Shown in pieces: positions 661-7,996 of a DNA stretch of 49,427 nt; within the stretch, counting starts at the first letter, position 1; each line of letters opens with the position of its first letter. Source of the stretch: Bacteroidota bacterium (GTDB taxonomy: Bacteria > Bacteroidota > Ignavibacteria > SZUA-365); contig JACZJN010000110.1 in the NCBI GenBank assembly GCA_014860565.1, positions 1 to 49,427 of the forward strand, read 5' to 3'. The notes under the pieces were generated by a model. The model was given only the letters and a program-made list of their open reading frames with translations. It ran no database searches and was not told the DNA's origin. Position numbers and translations under genes: made by a program.

Positions 661-1482
661 TCAATCCGCTTCTTCGCCCAGGAATTCCGACGGGGTTCGT
701 ATGATCATCCGCCGCATTTGCCCCTTCCGGATGGGGAACAGTCCTCCAAAGAGGCCGAGAGGCATCTCGAAGGGCTCGGGAAAGATCCGGCGGAGAAGGA
801 TCTCCTCGTGCATCTTCGGGAAGGAGGTCTGGCAGATCTGCGGCGTGAAGAAGCGCGCCATCGCCTCCCTGCCGTCGTAGAGCGCACGCTGGAAAAACAG
901 CATGGCCGCGCCGACGCGATCGAATACCTTCGCGGAGCAGGACCAGGACGGAATGGAGGGGAGGGGGCTTTTCCGCATCAGCAGGCTCTGGGACGGCGGA
1001 ACGGTGCACAGCCAGTGATGATTCGGGCCGAGCACGATCGAGAGCTCGAAGGTGGTGTTGGGAAACGTGCACAGCCGTCCGGGCTGCTGCCAGACGATGC
1101 GGGCGAAGAATTCCGGTTCGAGCACCGACGGTTCGGGATCGTCGCAGATCGCCTGTATGACGTCTTCGTGGAGCATCTGCACGTCGAACATCGGATTGCC
1201 CTCGGCGAGAGCGTAGGTCTGCCGCAGCATCTGCGCGGCGAGGCGCGCCTCCACGTCCTCCATGCGCGCGAGGAAATTGAGTGTGCGGACGGCTGCGCCG
1301 TATTGGCCGAGTCGGAACTGCGTCACGCCGAGGTAGTACCGCGCCCGGATGTTGTCCGGCTCCTGCACGAGGCAGTGTTCGAGGTTCATCTGCGCGGCGG
1401 GATAGGCGCCGATCCGGCAGAAGGAGATGCCGTTGAAAAGCGCGTCGGCCGGATTCTCGGGAAGGGGAAAGTGGGAATGCAT
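661..1482 (-). CDS. TPR-containing protein of unknown function
   Basis: About 273 residues. The N-terminal third reads as tetratricopeptide helices (for example YLGVTQFRLGQYGAAVRTL), which usually mediate protein contacts. The remainder, with conserved-looking Trp, Pro and Cys, was not recognised. No signal peptide is evident. The start MHSHFPLP was chosen because AAGGAG sits about 8 bases upstream; the frame is open further upstream, but that stretch is the conserved leader element, so an upstream start is unlikely. It lies 89 bases downstream of the L,D-transpeptidase gene on the same strand, and both genes carry the same leader, which suggests shared control. Confidence 0.7.
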   Translation of the reverse strand: MHSHFPLPENPADALFNGISFCRIGAYPAAQMNLEHCLVQEPDNIRARYYLGVTQFRLGQYGAAVRTLNFLARMEDVEARLAAQMLRQTYALAEGNPMFDVQMLHEDVIQAICDDPEPSVLEPEFFARIVWQQPGRLCTFPNTTFELSIVLGPNHHWLCTVPPSQSLLMRKSPLPSIPSWSCSAKVFDRVGAAMLFFQRALYDGREAMARFFTPQICQTSFPKMHEEILLRRIFPEPFEMPLGLFGGLFPIRKGQMRRMIIRTPSEFLGEEAD

Positions 1483-1493
1483 GAGAGACTCCT

Positions 1494-1555
1494 TTTTAGC
1501 TGTTCGAGAAATGGTGGCCGCAATAGGGATCAAATCGCCACCGGAGCGTATGCTC
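1494..1555 (-). promoter_or_regulatory. Conserved leader element, copy A (upstream of the TPR gene)
   Basis: In the sense (minus) direction the order is: an AGGAGCATACGCTCC hairpin, a 28-base block at 1514-1541 identical to copy B, a 9-base variable spacer, AACAGCTAAAA (1494-1504), then the ribosome site GGAGT and the ATG. The 28-base block begins GTGGC and ends GCCAC, giving a 5-bp stem around an 18-base loop containing UCCC, part of which could pair with the GGA of the ribosome site. Conserved-variable-conserved layout right before a start codon suggests a cis-regulatory RNA or regulator site. It does not match any riboswitch consensus I can recall. Confidence 0.5.
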
Positions 1556-1571
1556 CTCCGTGATCGTCGGG

Positions 1572-2345
1572 TTATTTGCCGTTCGCCGGAATGGCGTAGA
1601 GTCCGTCGGTCATCGGGACGGCGTCGGGGATGCGTCCCGTGTCCCGGTAGAAGCGCCACACCGCGCGCATGTTGTCGATGTGATCGCGCAGCAGCAGCCA
1701 GTACGGGTCGCCGTCCGCCCGGTACTGCCGGTCCGCATGGACGTACATCTGCTCGTAATGCGATTCGTTGTCATAGGGAAGCACGAGCACGGGAATCTGT
1801 CGCCTGCTCGCGGGCAGGGAAGCGACGAGCACGTAGAGCTTCTCGATGCCGTCGTCGGTCATCGCGATGCAGCCGATCGAGGCGCATTTGCCGTGGATGA
1901 AGATGTCGCCGCCCTGCGGCCAGCTGCCGCCGGCGAGGCGCGTATGCCGGGCATGCCGCGCATCGTCCACCGCGTTGGGGTAATTCATCTTCATCGACAG
2001 GTGGTAGCTGCTGCCGGGATTAAGCAGGGGAATGCGGTAGATGCCGTCGGGGGTGCGTCCGTCTCCCTGGCGTTCCTTGAATCCGGGCGATGTGTCCATC
2101 GCGCAGACGGGGAATCGGGCAATGGTGTCATGCCGCGCATCCTGCCGCACGACATACAGCATGCCCGTATGCTTGACGACGACGAAGCCGATGTCGCTCG
2201 TGCGCCAGTCATCCGTTCCGAATGCCTCGGACCAGAAAGGACCATGTTCGGCCGAGAGTCGCTGCAGCAGCGGCTGCGAATGGAGTGCTGCTCCCGTGAG
2301 GGGAGAAAGGAGAAGAAGAATGAGGAGGGAGATCTTGGTTTTCAT
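1572..2345 (-). CDS. Secreted L,D-transpeptidase family (YkuD) protein
   Basis: About 257 residues beginning with a clear signal peptide (MKTKISLLILLLLSPLTGAA). The catalytic signature of the YkuD fold is present as HGKCASIGCIAM, with His151, Ser156, Gly158 and the expected nucleophile Cys159. Just before it come a GDGRTPDGIYRIP strand typical of YafK-type members and a KMNYPN segment. The family cross-links peptidoglycan or attaches proteins to it in the periplasm, or cleaves such links. The extra Cys154 near the active site is worth noting. The start follows CGGAGT at normal spacing. Leader copy B lies directly upstream and the TPR gene is downstream on the same strand. Confidence 0.85.
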   Translation of the reverse strand: MKTKISLLILLLLSPLTGAALHSQPLLQRLSAEHGPFWSEAFGTDDWRTSDIGFVVVKHTGMLYVVRQDARHDTIARFPVCAMDTSPGFKERQGDGRTPDGIYRIPLLNPGSSYHLSMKMNYPNAVDDARHARHTRLAGGSWPQGGDIFIHGKCASIGCIAMTDDGIEKLYVLVASLPASRRQIPVLVLPYDNESHYEQMYVHADRQYRADGDPYWLLLRDHIDNMRAVWRFYRDTGRIPDAVPMTDGLYAIPANGK

Positions 2346-2358
2346 CGGCGGTACTCCG

Positions 2359-2419
2359 TTTTAGCTGTTTGTTTACCGTGGCCGCAATAGGGATCAAATC
2401 GCCACTGTGTTCATACTCC
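2359..2419 (-). promoter_or_regulatory. Conserved leader element, copy B (upstream of the L,D-transpeptidase gene)
   Basis: This is the second copy of the leader: AGGAGTATG, the identical 28-base block at 2378-2405, an 8-base spacer unlike that of copy A, AACAGCTAAAA (2359-2369), CGGAGT and the start codon about 14 bases later. The upstream GGAG hairpin of copy A is not preserved as a hairpin here. The frame of the block relative to the downstream start differs between copies, so the conservation is not due to a shared peptide. It is the likely 5' leader of the two-gene unit. Confidence 0.5.
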
Positions 2420-2531
2420 TATGATGGGAATTGGTTGTGATGAATGCAATGCAAAATTCCTGCCATAGAGGAGAAGCGGGATTGTGACACGTGTCGGAGG
2501 AAGGGGAAGAAAACCTCAGTAGAGGACCTGA

Positions 2532-2849: not shown

Positions 2850-5369
2850 TTATCCATTCGTTTGTGGAACTGCAGAAGCAATATCCGACCGTGTCGTGGG
2901 TTTGATGGGATCGAATATCCGATACGCGAGCAGTTTCAGGCGGTCGTTTACGAGGAACCATACCAACGCGTACCCCCAAACGAACAGTGCCCAATCCCAG
3001 CCGAGGGGTTTCATAAACAACCCATAAACCGCAATCCATGTCGCGATTATTTGCGTGCCGAGTACCGCTATCCACAGGACCCGCGCCGGTCGAATGGACC
3101 AAAATGGACCGCGTGTACGCGTGAGGAAGATCGTCAGATGTCCGGCTACGGAAAGCTTCAAATACATAAGCGTCTGAATGTGCGCGCGGTCGAGGTGAAA
3201 TACGCGCTCGCCCAAATAAAACAGGCCAAACGCGGACACAACTCCTATGATCCCCAGCGCTGTCGAGATCCCCAGCACCATGCGCATGTTCCAAGCCTCG
3301 GGCTGAGCTTTGTGATGGACATTGTCGTAGGCGATCGACAGGATGGCGCCATCGTTGAGCAATGCCAGCATCACTATCATCACGGCTGTCAGTGGATAAA
3401 AGTTAAAGACGAGAATCGCCAGCGTCATGAAGAATAGCACACGTAACGTCTCCGCTATCCGATAAATCGCATAACTGTTCATCCGTTGGAAGATTCGGCG
3501 GCTCTCTTTGATCGCGTCAATAATCACCGAGAGACCGGAGGATAAAAGAACGATGGCTGCTGCAGCGCGAGCCGCATCCGTCGCATCCGAAACAGCTATG
3601 CCACAGTCGGCTTTTTTCAGCGCGGGTGCATCATTCACTCCGTCACCCGTCATACCGACAATATGACCGCGTTTTTGAAGGACATCCACAATGTGGAATT
3701 TATGTTCAGGAAATACCTGAGCGAAACCGTCGGCCGTATCGATGGATTCGGCCATTTCTGGGGATTCTTGTTTGTTTGCGTCACCCAGGCCGCTGGCTTC
3801 GAGGATATTTGTGCCCATGTCCAACTTCTTGGCGGTTTCCTTTGCGATGGCCAGGGCATCGCCTGTCACCATCTTGATCTGCACGCCCATCGCCTTCGCG
3901 GTCGCGATAGTGGCCTTGGCATCCTCCCTCGGTGGGTCGAAGAGAGGCAACACACCAACAAACTGCCACGGGCCTTTTCCCTCAGCCCGTGCCACACCCA
4001 GCGATCGAAAGCCGCGCGTCGCGAATTCGTTGACCGCTTTCTCCACGACGGGCTTCACCTCCGCGGCATTGGCGGACAAGGCCAAAATCACCTGTGGCGC
4101 ACCCTTCGTCACCCTGAACGTCTCTCCGTCCTCCGTTCTTACTGTGGCCTCGGTACGCTTGTGCACCGGGTCGAAGGGCTGGAAATGCACCACTTCATAT
4201 GTCTTCAATGAATCCTTGTCTTTTACTCCGCCCAGGACGGCCAAGTCAATGGTATCGTTATTTTCCGCGCGCGATGCCATAGCGGCAAAGAGAATGACTT
4301 GTTCGACCGGAACATTATCCACGGCGAAGGGCTCGCCCAGCGTCAGTTTATTCTGGGTCAGGGTGCCTGTCTTGTCGGCACAGAGCACATCCACACCCGC
4401 CAACTCTTCAATGGCCACCAACTTGCTCACGATCGCCTCTTTTTTTGCGAGCAGTCGTGCGCCGACGGCCATCGTCACCGACAACACCGTCGGCATCGCC
4501 ACGGGAATAGCAGCCACAGTCAATACCAGCGCAAATTGCAGTGTGGTCAGGATCGGATCGCCTCTGAAGATCGCGACGGCAATAATCACCGCCACCAGTG
4601 CCACCGCGAGGATGATTAAGTAGTTGCCGATTTTCAGCACCGCGCGCTGAAAATGACTCTCAGTGTGCGCCTCCTGCACCAGTTTCGCTGTCTTGCCGAA
4701 ATAGGTGTTCGCACCCGTTGCATATACCGTTGCACCGATTTCGCCCTGACGGATAATCGATCCCGAGAACACTGCCTCGCCGGATTTGCGCGTGGCAGGC
4801 AGCGACTCTCCCGTCAGTGCGGACTGATCCACTTCCACCGGGTCGCCTTCCAGCAATCGCGCATCCGCCGGTACGATGTCGCCCAGGCGTAAACGAATGA
4901 CATCACCCGGCACCAATTCGCGCGCTGCTGGGTTGGTCCATTTCCCGTCACGTTTCACGCGGGCCTGGACCGCCAGCTTGGCCTTGAGTGCCGCGATGGC
5001 ATTGCCCGCCTGATGCTCTTCCCAGAATCCGACGACGGCATTGGAAACAAGCAGCAGGAGGATGATGCCAAAGTCCGGCCAATGCCGGGCGGCCGCCGAA
5101 AGGATCACGGCCGCTTCGATCATCCAGGGAATGGGACCCCAAAAATAGGTGAGGAATTTCAGGAACGGATTGGTTTTCTTTTCTTCGATCTCGTTGGGTC
5201 CGTACTGGATCAGCCGTTTCTGCGCCTCTGCTTGGCTGAGGCCATCCGGCGACGTCCCCAGTTTCGCCTGCAATTCCGGCATAGGGAGGGTTTTCAGATC
5301 GTCCTTTGGCGTGGGCCTCGATTCAGGCTTGGACTCAAGGTCCTTGGGTTGGCCGGTATCGGGTTTCAT
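2850..5369 (-). CDS. P-type IIIA (plasma-membrane type) proton-translocating ATPase
   Basis: 839 residues, the usual length of prokaryotic P-IIIA H+-ATPases. In order: a cation-ATPase N-terminal helix region, TM1-2, the actuator loop with SALTGES, TM3-4 with the PVAMPT bend, the phosphorylation site DKTGTLT at Asp332, the nucleotide domain, MVTGD, the hinge TGDGVNDAPALK, and TM5-10. TM6 carries LNDGAILSIAYD, the Asp-bearing signature of H+-pumping members rather than Ca2+ or heavy-metal pumps. It should export protons using ATP and hold membrane potential or internal pH. The start follows GAGGTG. Base composition is more AT-rich than the flanking operons and the neighbours are stress or hibernation proteins, suggesting a transferred stress module. 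Confidence 0.9.
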   Translation of the reverse strand: MKPDTGQPKDLESKPESRPTPKDDLKTLPMPELQAKLGTSPDGLSQAEAQKRLIQYGPNEIEEKKTNPFLKFLTYFWGPIPWMIEAAVILSAAARHWPDFGIILLLLVSNAVVGFWEEHQAGNAIAALKAKLAVQARVKRDGKWTNPAARELVPGDVIRLRLGDIVPADARLLEGDPVEVDQSALTGESLPATRKSGEAVFSGSIIRQGEIGATVYATGANTYFGKTAKLVQEAHTESHFQRAVLKIGNYLIILAVALVAVIIAVAIFRGDPILTTLQFALVLTVAAIPVAMPTVLSVTMAVGARLLAKKEAIVSKLVAIEELAGVDVLCADKTGTLTQNKLTLGEPFAVDNVPVEQVILFAAMASRAENNDTIDLAVLGGVKDKDSLKTYEVVHFQPFDPVHKRTEATVRTEDGETFRVTKGAPQVILALSANAAEVKPVVEKAVNEFATRGFRSLGVARAEGKGPWQFVGVLPLFDPPREDAKATIATAKAMGVQIKMVTGDALAIAKETAKKLDMGTNILEASGLGDANKQESPEMAESIDTADGFAQVFPEHKFHIVDVLQKRGHIVGMTGDGVNDAPALKKADCGIAVSDATDAARAAAAIVLLSSGLSVIIDAIKESRRIFQRMNSYAIYRIAETLRVLFFMTLAILVFNFYPLTAVMIVMLALLNDGAILSIAYDNVHHKAQPEAWNMRMVLGISTALGIIGVVSAFGLFYLGERVFHLDRAHIQTLMYLKLSVAGHLTIFLTRTRGPFWSIRPARVLWIAVLGTQIIATWIAVYGLFMKPLGWDWALFVWGYALVWFLVNDRLKLLAYRIFDPIKPTTRSDIASAVPQTNG

Positions 5370-5491
5370 GATATGAATTCACCTCATGGTCTGAATTTTC
5401 CAATTCGTGCCTAATACACATTTTCTTCCAGGTGGACGGAGTGCCATCGCCGCCTGTCGATCCATGCAGGTTGCCCGTCTCTTCGATGATG

Positions 5492-5851
5492 TCAGCTGTC
5501 AATCGACCCGGACGGAGGCGGATCACTCCTTTGACTTCCGTGATCGCGCAATCGCCCAACAGTGTTTTCGATCAATCTTGTCAACTTCGCTGAAGCGCCA
5601 TCCACCGCCTGATCCATGGTAGGTGCATGGTGAGTGACCGCGATGGGCTGACGCCTTGCGAGACGCGCTTCCATGACGCAGCGCTTGCTGTCCTGGCCGT
5701 TCTTGTGACTGGCATCGTCGCTCAGATGCACCTCTACACGGGTGATGTGATCGCGGATTCGGGTCAGGGCGCTCTCGACGATGCTCGTGATCTGAGCAGA
5801 CAGCGCCTCGCGGCCTTCAATGTTATGGTCGGTATTGATCTGGATTTGCAT
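5492..5851 (-). CDS. hpf: Short ribosome hibernation promoting factor (HPF/RaiA family)
   Basis: 119 residues, matching the short HPF/YfiA class. It begins MQIQINTDHNIEG, shows the beta-alpha-beta pattern (IVESALTRIRDHITRVEVHLSDD), and has a second alpha helix (MDQAVDGASAKLTRLIENTVGRLRD). The family binds the decoding centre of the small subunit and inactivates ribosomes in stationary phase or energy stress. The C-terminal tail is short and polar; there is no dimerisation domain as in long HPF. It follows the baeRF-like gene by 29 bases, so the two are likely co-transcribed, and the proton ATPase follows 122 bases further down. The start is preceded by GGAGA. Confidence 0.85.
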   Translation of the reverse strand: MQIQINTDHNIEGREALSAQITSIVESALTRIRDHITRVEVHLSDDASHKNGQDSKRCVMEARLARRQPIAVTHHAPTMDQAVDGASAKLTRLIENTVGRLRDHGSQRSDPPPSGSIDS

Positions 5852-5880
5852 GATATTCTCCGGTTCTGATTGTTGTTGCT

Positions 5881-7044
5881 TCAGTATCGGTAGGTGGCGG
5901 CCACGCCCGTCTGCACCGGCATCTGCCCAGCCGGAATAACAAAGACCCGGCCGCTCATCTTTTCAACAAGCTCACCAAGATCGTCCAGAAGCTCATCGTT
6001 TTTCGTGCGGTTCGAATCCTCGGGTTCGATCAGTCCAGTGGGGCCATCAAGCCGACCGGCGAATAGGCGGTCCGATTCGATCAGAAGCGTCGCAACTCGC
6101 CCAGCCGCGGCGGCCAGTGCAACCTGCGCCAGGTCGTCGCTCCCGAGCCCGTTGGACTTCGAGACTGCGAAATTACGGGCAAGTGCCGCAAGCCGCGCCT
6201 GGTACTGAGGCTCAACGACTTGCCAGGCGCGCTCACGAAGCTCATCGATTGAAATTGCATCGGGATTGATGGTAAGGCCCTCCGCCAACAGGAACGGATT
6301 GTGACTGACCTTGCGGAAAAGATGATGATGCTCCGGCAAGGCGGCCAGGATCAACGGCAGGTTCGAAGGCCGCGAGTGGTGCTCGAGCACGGCGCGATCG
6401 ATAGTGCGAAAAAACCGCTCCGCGTCGATTTCCACCCCATCCTGTTTTACTCCGTGGCCGTGATGCATGGGCGTGCTTGCCTGACCGGCACCGCCATAAG
6501 AGGCTACAGTCAGATGCGGCTCTGACAGCTCATCCCCCAAAGCCGCCGTGATTGTCCGGGGGACTCCAGGAGCTGTACTGATCTCGTCAAGCGCGTCACG
6601 ATTTCCTTCGAATAACCGGATAGTACGGAGGCTCAATCCCAGGACCTGATAGCGATCGACCGATTGAAGAAGGCGTCGTAATGGTTTTGTATGAAAGTTG
6701 TCGCCTACGATTGCTAATTCGGCCACTGTACGTTGAAGCCGGAACACACGAAACAGGCCGGGTCCACTCAGCACGGCCAACCCGTCCTGCGCAACCTCCC
6801 AGAAAGCCTGATCATGAATAAGGTCCTCATAAGGTTTGAGAAAAGACCCGACTTCGCTGTCCGAATACTTTTCACCGAGCGATGCCCCAAGCTCCTTGAT
6901 AAGGTTACGGAACCGGATCGGGTCCTGCTGATTCTCGGGGTGTCGCCGATGTGTGGGTTGGTAGAGTGAGAGACATGGCGGCTGCTGAACCGATGCCAGT
7001 TCGGCCACTGCTTCGATGCTTAGCACCGTGTTGTTGTGTATCAT
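5881..7044 (-). CDS. Bacterial archaeo-eukaryotic release-factor-like protein (baeRF3-type)
   Basis: 387 residues. The N-terminal region (SVQQPPCLSLYQPTHR) and the central segment (AERFFRTIDRAVLEHH followed by LPLILAALPEHHHLFRKVS) match the layout of the baeRF family, which has the eRF1 domain-2/3 fold but not the full release-factor GGQ region. A His-rich stretch STPMHHGHG lies mid-protein. These proteins are predicted to act on stalled or hibernating ribosomes; biochemical function is not established. It lies just upstream of hpf on the same strand, supporting a translation-arrest role. The start is preceded by AGGAG. The exact baeRF subclass is my best reading and could be a neighbouring one. 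Confidence 0.75.
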   Translation of the reverse strand: MIHNNTVLSIEAVAELASVQQPPCLSLYQPTHRRHPENQQDPIRFRNLIKELGASLGEKYSDSEVGSFLKPYEDLIHDQAFWEVAQDGLAVLSGPGLFRVFRLQRTVAELAIVGDNFHTKPLRRLLQSVDRYQVLGLSLRTIRLFEGNRDALDEISTAPGVPRTITAALGDELSEPHLTVASYGGAGQASTPMHHGHGVKQDGVEIDAERFFRTIDRAVLEHHSRPSNLPLILAALPEHHHLFRKVSHNPFLLAEGLTINPDAISIDELRERAWQVVEPQYQARLAALARNFAVSKSNGLGSDDLAQVALAAAAGRVATLLIESDRLFAGRLDGPTGLIEPEDSNRTKNDELLDDLGELVEKMSGRVFVIPAGQMPVQTGVAATYRY

Positions 7045-7225
7045 TCTTTATCTCCTGTCTTGTGATTCCGTTTCATGACGCGGTTCAGATGAACGCAGAT
7101 GAAGTGCCGTTCGTGAAGGAAACCAAGCCGCACCACTTTTGTTGCTGCAAAATCATGGCGTCAAACGTCCTCTCCCTGCCCCGGCAATGAAGGCACATAC
7201 GGACGAATGTTCTATGCATTCATCA

Positions 7226-7996
7226 TCAGGAAGCCTTCTCGGCAGCAGGTTCATCGAACCAATATTCCCGGCGATCATAATGTCGGTGCAGCGTGGTTTC
7301 ATAATCACGGGTTATCAGTGACTGGTCCGTGTATTCCGGGGATTGTTTTATGGCCTCACGCGACAGATTCACCAAGACTTTCGTCTCGTCCCAACTCACG
7401 CGTTCTATCCATCGCGGTGAAAGCAGGACTTTATTGCCCGGCCACCAGTTACGTGTGTCAATGATGAGATAACGGATCGCCCATGTTTCGTCATCGATAA
7501 TGAAATCTTCGACGTGGCCTATGTCTCCATCCGTAGCCTGGATGTTGTAGCCGCGCACATTGTGAGTGCTGCGCAAATGGGGATCCCACGCATCCTTGCT
7601 TTGTGCGGTTTCTTTCCAATAGTTGCGGTCACGAACGATGCCGGGATATAGTCCCCACATATATGAACCGCTCCAATACATCGGCCATCCATAATATCCG
7701 TAGTAGTCCTGCTCGAATTGGCGAGAGACGGGTTTGTCATGGTCAAGGGATGGACTGTTCACAATCTGCGTTTTGTTCAAATCGATATCGATATGTTCCT
7801 CTGCCGTATTTACGGCAACCAGCGCATACGGGGAAATCAGCACCCGCCTGCCTGCTGTGAGCCAGCTTCCCGGGTCGGCAATCAGATAGCGAATCACCCA
7901 ATACCTGTCATCGAAATAGAACTCCTTCACTGTTCCTATCTCTCCGTCGAGGCCATGCAGCGCGTACCCTTGAAGTGTTTTTACCTTGATCAGCAT
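7226..7996 (-). CDS. Protein with two PRC-barrel domains
   Basis: 256 residues with an internal duplication. The first barrel is near residues 5-75 (GYALHGLDGEIGTVKEFYFDD, VIRYLIADPGSWLTAGRRVLISP), the second near 145-215 (YNIQATDGDIGHVEDFIIDDE, AIRYLIIDTRNWWPGNKVLLSP). Between them is an aromatic Tyr/Trp-rich linker with YYGYYGWPMYW. PRC barrels are small beta domains found in RimM, photosynthetic reaction centre H subunits and many stress proteins; they bind proteins or membranes. No signal peptide or membrane helix is evident. It is the first gene of the minus-strand stress block, 181 bases upstream of the baeRF-like gene, with AAAGGA before its start. Role within the block is unknown. Confidence 0.85.
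   Translation of the reverse strand: MLIKVKTLQGYALHGLDGEIGTVKEFYFDDRYWVIRYLIADPGSWLTAGRRVLISPYALVAVNTAEEHIDIDLNKTQIVNSPSLDHDKPVSRQFEQDYYGYYGWPMYWSGSYMWGLYPGIVRDRNYWKETAQSKDAWDPHLRSTHNVRGYNIQATDGDIGHVEDFIIDDETWAIRYLIIDTRNWWPGNKVLLSPRWIERVSWDETKVLVNLSREAIKQSPEYTDQSLITRDYETTLHRHYDRREYWFDEPAAEKAS

Follow-up and report, generated by a model that had tools for sequence, protein, structure and literature searches.

Two predicted SAM-II riboswitches, one before each gene of a YkuD–TPR pair, account for a duplicated 28-nucleotide block

The locus studied here raises the question of what is served by a block of 28 nucleotides, GTGGCGATTTGATCCCTATTGCGGCCAC, which occurs twice without mismatch on the minus strand of the window (the whole stretch of 49,427 nucleotides that was analysed), one copy preceding each start codon of two adjacent genes (Table 1). 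By our own estimate, an exact repeat of 28 bases in 49 kb is expected by chance at about 1e-8 pairs. The sequence agrees with a preliminary description of this DNA on the identity, strand and positions of the two copies, on the placing of one before the first gene and the other between the genes, and on the conservation of AACAGCTAAAA and GGAGT in both, with spacers that differ.

Table 1. Positions in the window of the two genes, the predicted riboswitches and their parts.
Feature	Position	Strand	Details
Putative sigma-54-type -24/-12 promoter, TGGCAGGAATTTTGC (GG-N10-GC)	2451-2465	-	45 nt 5' of copy 1 P1
Predicted SAM-II riboswitch copy 1, 5' of YkuD gene	2340-2415	-	RF00521 38.8 bits; model R2 44.4 bits
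Copy 1, 28-nt block	2378-2405	-	Sequence; alignment to 2QWY-type core; P1 covariation
Copy 1, P1 arms	2401-2405 and 2378-2382	-	Sequence; P1 covariation
Copy 1, UCC	2391-2393	-	In 28-nt block
Copy 1, loop L1	within 2378-2405	-	Contains UUU and UUGC of SAM pocket
Copy 1, 3' part	2354-2365	-	GCUAAA of SAM pocket 2360-2365; Shine-Dalgarno GGAG 2354-2357, P2a-paired; fixed-register P2a covariation
YkuD gene	1572-2345	-	257 aa; PF03734 2.2e-8
Predicted SAM-II riboswitch copy 2, intergenic, 5' of TPR gene	1475-1551	-	RF00521 23.6 bits; model R2 35.6 bits
Copy 2, 28-nt block	1514-1541	-	P1 arms 1537-1541 and 1514-1518; UCC of P2a 1527-1529
Copy 2, 3' part	1489-1500	-	GCUAAA 1495-1500; Shine-Dalgarno GGAG 1489-1492
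TPR gene	661-1482	-	273 aa; weak Pfam TPR matches

The first copy is assigned by Rfam to the SAM-II family (RF00521), above the gathering score of 36, which corrects the earlier statement that no riboswitch class matches; since the RNA belongs to a known Rfam family, it is not itself novel by the measure which that description had proposed. For the second copy RF00521 is also the best family, at a score (E 0.008) below the gathering score. Both copies were recovered by model R2 (E 9e-7 for copy 2), whose 19 source SAM-II RNAs come from other lineages in the class, outside the subgroup of the window; those of them with a readable downstream gene lie mostly before metH-, metK- and metY-like genes, as named by sequence resemblance. 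A third SAM-II copy was not found by the R2 search in the whole 4.75-Mb genome. The 13 nucleotides reported as fully conserved in the SAM-II pocket (U10-12, U20, U21, G22, C23, G42, C43, U44 and A45-47; PMC3764141) are all present in both copies, as UUU in L1, UUGC and GCUAAA. Loop L3, which in canonical SAM-II is A-rich and contacts P1, is partly A-rich in the YkuD copies, and in the TPR copies its place is taken by a U/C-rich spacer. Identity with SAM-V (RF01826) was dropped because both copies reach only 18.7-19.2 bits, far short of the cut-off of 41, and a new RNA class was dropped because both Rfam and R2 match SAM-II. The two blocks are very probably the cores of two SAM-II riboswitches, one per cistron, and SAM-dependent translational shut-off of each cistron is the likely mechanism, since P2a pairs the loop UCC with the Shine-Dalgarno GGA.

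The stem GTGGC/GCCAC and the pairing of the UCC loop with GGA, both foreseen from the window sequence alone, are genuine elements of the SAM-II fold. Covariation was assessed in 29-30 aptamers from the window genome and related genomes, with pairs counted by script anchors, because MAFFT alignments misplace metY aptamers with a short P1 at their 5' arm. P1 is GUGGC/GCCAC in the window, UUGGC/GCCAG in one copy of genome G008, and GUCGU/GCGAC, AUGGC/GCCAU or AGUGG/CCACU elsewhere; the pairing of each arm with its own partner was reached by none of 5000 arm permutations (29 aptamers). For P2a, whose 3' strand in the window is formed by the Shine-Dalgarno GGA, 81 of 90 cells are paired when the register is fixed as in the known fold, and a shift to either adjacent register gives 34 and 33 paired cells; C-G, A-U, G-C and U-A versions occur among the aptamers, and 0/5000 permutations matched the observed pairing. 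The fixed register was used because a test allowing any register is uninformative, 1440 of 5000 permutations reaching the observed value. These results for P1 and P2a are strong, yet inexact, since the permutations ignore relatedness. P2b is invariant and so uninformative for covariation. Minimum-free-energy folding, a method that cannot draw pseudoknots, gave no significant z-score. Immediately 5' of the TPR-copy P1 there is a GGAG-N6-CTCC mini-hairpin (1542-1562, minus strand), with an equivalent before the TPR-copy P1 in G008 and G009 (L022, L021) and none seen in G007; the CUCC of this hairpin could base-pair with the Shine-Dalgarno GGAG as well, a hint of a second anti-Shine-Dalgarno element.

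The YkuD-domain protein matches NF040599 (LdtF_DpaA_YafK) at 62.8 bits, under the equivalog cut-off of 365, and is classed from its sequence as a relative of DpaA/YafK/LdtF, not an equivalog. It has a putative signal peptide, recognised by eye, and the catalytic IHG...SIGC motif (HG...SxGC is kept). Two residues past the catalytic Cys, where true L,D-transpeptidases (LDT) have a conserved arginine in the active site, stands an Ala; the protein appears to be without this arginine. The same arginine is likewise missing from DpaA (PMC8263019). For the TPR protein the best Pfam match is TPR_19 (4.9e-5, 24 bits, slightly below the cut-off of 25).

SAM-II RNAs typically, though not by definition, precede genes of methionine or SAM metabolism, and in other families of the class they are found before metH-, metK- and metY-like genes, whereas the targets here are the YkuD and TPR genes; we know of no methionine or SAM link for either. 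Around metK, neither SAM-II nor any other SAM riboswitch was detected in the window genome, G001, G007 or G008; searches likewise gave no SAM-I aptamer across four genomes of the family, and no SAM-II or SAM-I aptamer at the methionine genes of the window genome. In a genome of the same genus (G003), a canonical SAM-II lies before metK (L009, G003:C35). Since this MetK shares only about 51% identity with its counterparts elsewhere in the family, the gene may have been acquired by horizontal transfer, or may represent a stray contig or assembly contamination.

A SAM-II-derived variant with an altered ligand or input, such as SAH, a SAM-like metabolite or a protein, would account for the non-methionine target genes, and the changed L3 and a P1 that is near-fixed in this lineage and variable elsewhere in the class point the same way. 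Every reported SAM-contacting nucleotide is nevertheless unchanged, including U11 and U21, which sense the positive sulfonium (PMC3764141), and we regard such a variant as improbable compared with ordinary SAM-II riboswitches.

The order riboswitch-YkuD-riboswitch-TPR is also found in the complete genome G007, of another genus, and in G008, of a third genus, where the RNA copy upstream of YkuD has diverged. Across genera, identity between orthologues is 52-57% for YkuD and 36-41% for TPR, and at four-fold degenerate sites, which are saturated, it is 34-45%. The 28-nucleotide block is nonetheless kept, with 27-28 of 28 positions identical to the window block in G007 and complete identity in the TPR copy of G008. 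The duplication of the riboswitch is therefore old, and selection maintains the RNA. By the similarity of their spacers the copies sort by gene and not by genome, as expected of an ancient pair. A simple recent duplication, the rival named in the preliminary description, is excluded, the pair being older than the divergence of three or more genera; its proposal of a duplicated, structured cis-regulatory RNA is borne out by the copies in other genera together with compensatory changes in P1 across the class, the kind of support it had anticipated. The exact 28-base block was absent from the viral contigs searched. A pattern match in G001 (L025) was discarded, as it lies inside a glycosidase-like coding sequence.

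In genus g3, the gene content indicates that the unit is decaying. G009 has an RNA that has lost its Shine-Dalgarno site and is joined to a truncated TPR gene at about codon 124, while G005 has an orphan, intact SAM-II RNA (L014:183-259) with a sigma-54-type promoter and no YkuD or TPR gene downstream. Because the G005 RNA combines the upstream region of a YkuD copy with the spacer of a TPR copy, its sequence suggests that the two repeats recombined and the DNA between them was deleted. This decay is what would be seen if the RNAs were functionless, degenerating SAM-II remnants, but the window genome and G007 retain both genes and both RNA copies intact, and the RNA has been kept over a divergence at which synonymous sites are saturated, so that this explanation is very improbable.

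Upstream of copy 1 there is a sigma-54-type element (Table 1), whose pattern TGGCAN5TTTGC has one exact match in the window. The element is also found in G007, G008 and G005, 35-39 nt 5' of P1, and RpoN is encoded in all four genomes. As the element was spotted by eye and the search pattern was set afterwards, its preservation at a comparable spacing is what chiefly supports its presumed promoter activity. Further upstream (2850-7996, minus strand) are genes for a P-type cation ATPase, an S30AE ribosome-hibernation-like protein, a baeRF release-factor-like protein and a PRC-barrel protein, which resemble a stress/dormancy-like gene set. A duplicated promoter or transcription-factor site acting at the DNA level, as the near-perfect identity of the blocks might indicate, was rejected as highly implausible on account of the compensatory changes in P1 and P2a, and it also conflicts with the strand and position fixed relative to the start codons, the Rfam and R2 matches to SAM-II and the separate promoter-like element already present upstream.

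Class membership, the conserved pocket, the covarying P1 and P2a, the Shine-Dalgarno overlap and the kept arrangement are shown by the sequences, and on this basis a mechanism can be proposed for the SAM-II riboswitches. Transcription would probably start at the sigma-54 promoter 5' of copy 1 and yield one mRNA with two independent translational SAM switches, independent because each copy lies directly on the ribosome site of its own gene. We infer that abundant S-adenosylmethionine would be bound in the pocket formed by UUU, UUGC and GCUAAA and would lock the H-type pseudoknot, in which the hairpin-loop UCC is paired to the Shine-Dalgarno GGA. Ribosomes would then be prevented from starting, and less of both proteins would be made; at low SAM, the ribosome site would be accessible. 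The Sargasso Sea SAM-II is a documented case of Shine-Dalgarno occlusion by SAM, and for the SAM-II of S. meliloti metA such occlusion is backed by reporter data (PMC9373788).

Because the RNA class is known, the value of the locus lies in its target genes, and what seems to be new is an unusual regulon with a predicted layout of one switch per cistron. We tentatively suggest, as a reading of perhaps even chances at best, that a SAM-II subfamily was recruited to an envelope-remodelling unit, in which the sigma-54 promoter and the per-cistron switches make a DpaA-like enzyme and its TPR partner responsive to the SAM level, in genomes whose methionine genes show no SAM-II or SAM-I aptamer. If so, SAM sensing would be tied to a peptidoglycan-related enzyme, both cistrons of one unit would carry separate SAM switches, and a route to the function of the TPR protein would be given. 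No paper with both 'SAM-II riboswitch' and 'transpeptidase' was found in open-access full text.

Among known systems, the copies described here share with the SAM-II class (RF00521 being named SAM_alpha and RF01726 being the long-loop form) the H-type pseudoknot, the GAUUU/UUGC/GCUAAA pocket, the geometry of P1 and P2, and the UUGC-GCUAA P2b with its bulged U. They differ from it in standing before DpaA/YafK-like and TPR genes instead of methionine genes, in the L3 of the TPR copies, which is not A-rich, and in the presence of one aptamer per cistron. The Sargasso Sea metX SAM-II (PDB 2QWY) is likewise a compact aptamer whose P2a pairs the Shine-Dalgarno site, and its spacing between P2b and P2a is presumably the same; the copies here have an L1 that is 1 nt longer, a possible third U-A pair in P2a and another gene downstream. 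SAM-V has in common with them the CUAAAAAGGAGU 3' end and translational control, although their scores against RF01826 fall well below its cut-off, as given above. In tandem SAM-II and SAM-II/SAM-V riboswitches, several aptamers act on a shared downstream ORF (PMC9481103). The locus resembles these in having more than one SAM aptamer in proximity, but its second aptamer lies between two genes, each of which has its own ribosome site.
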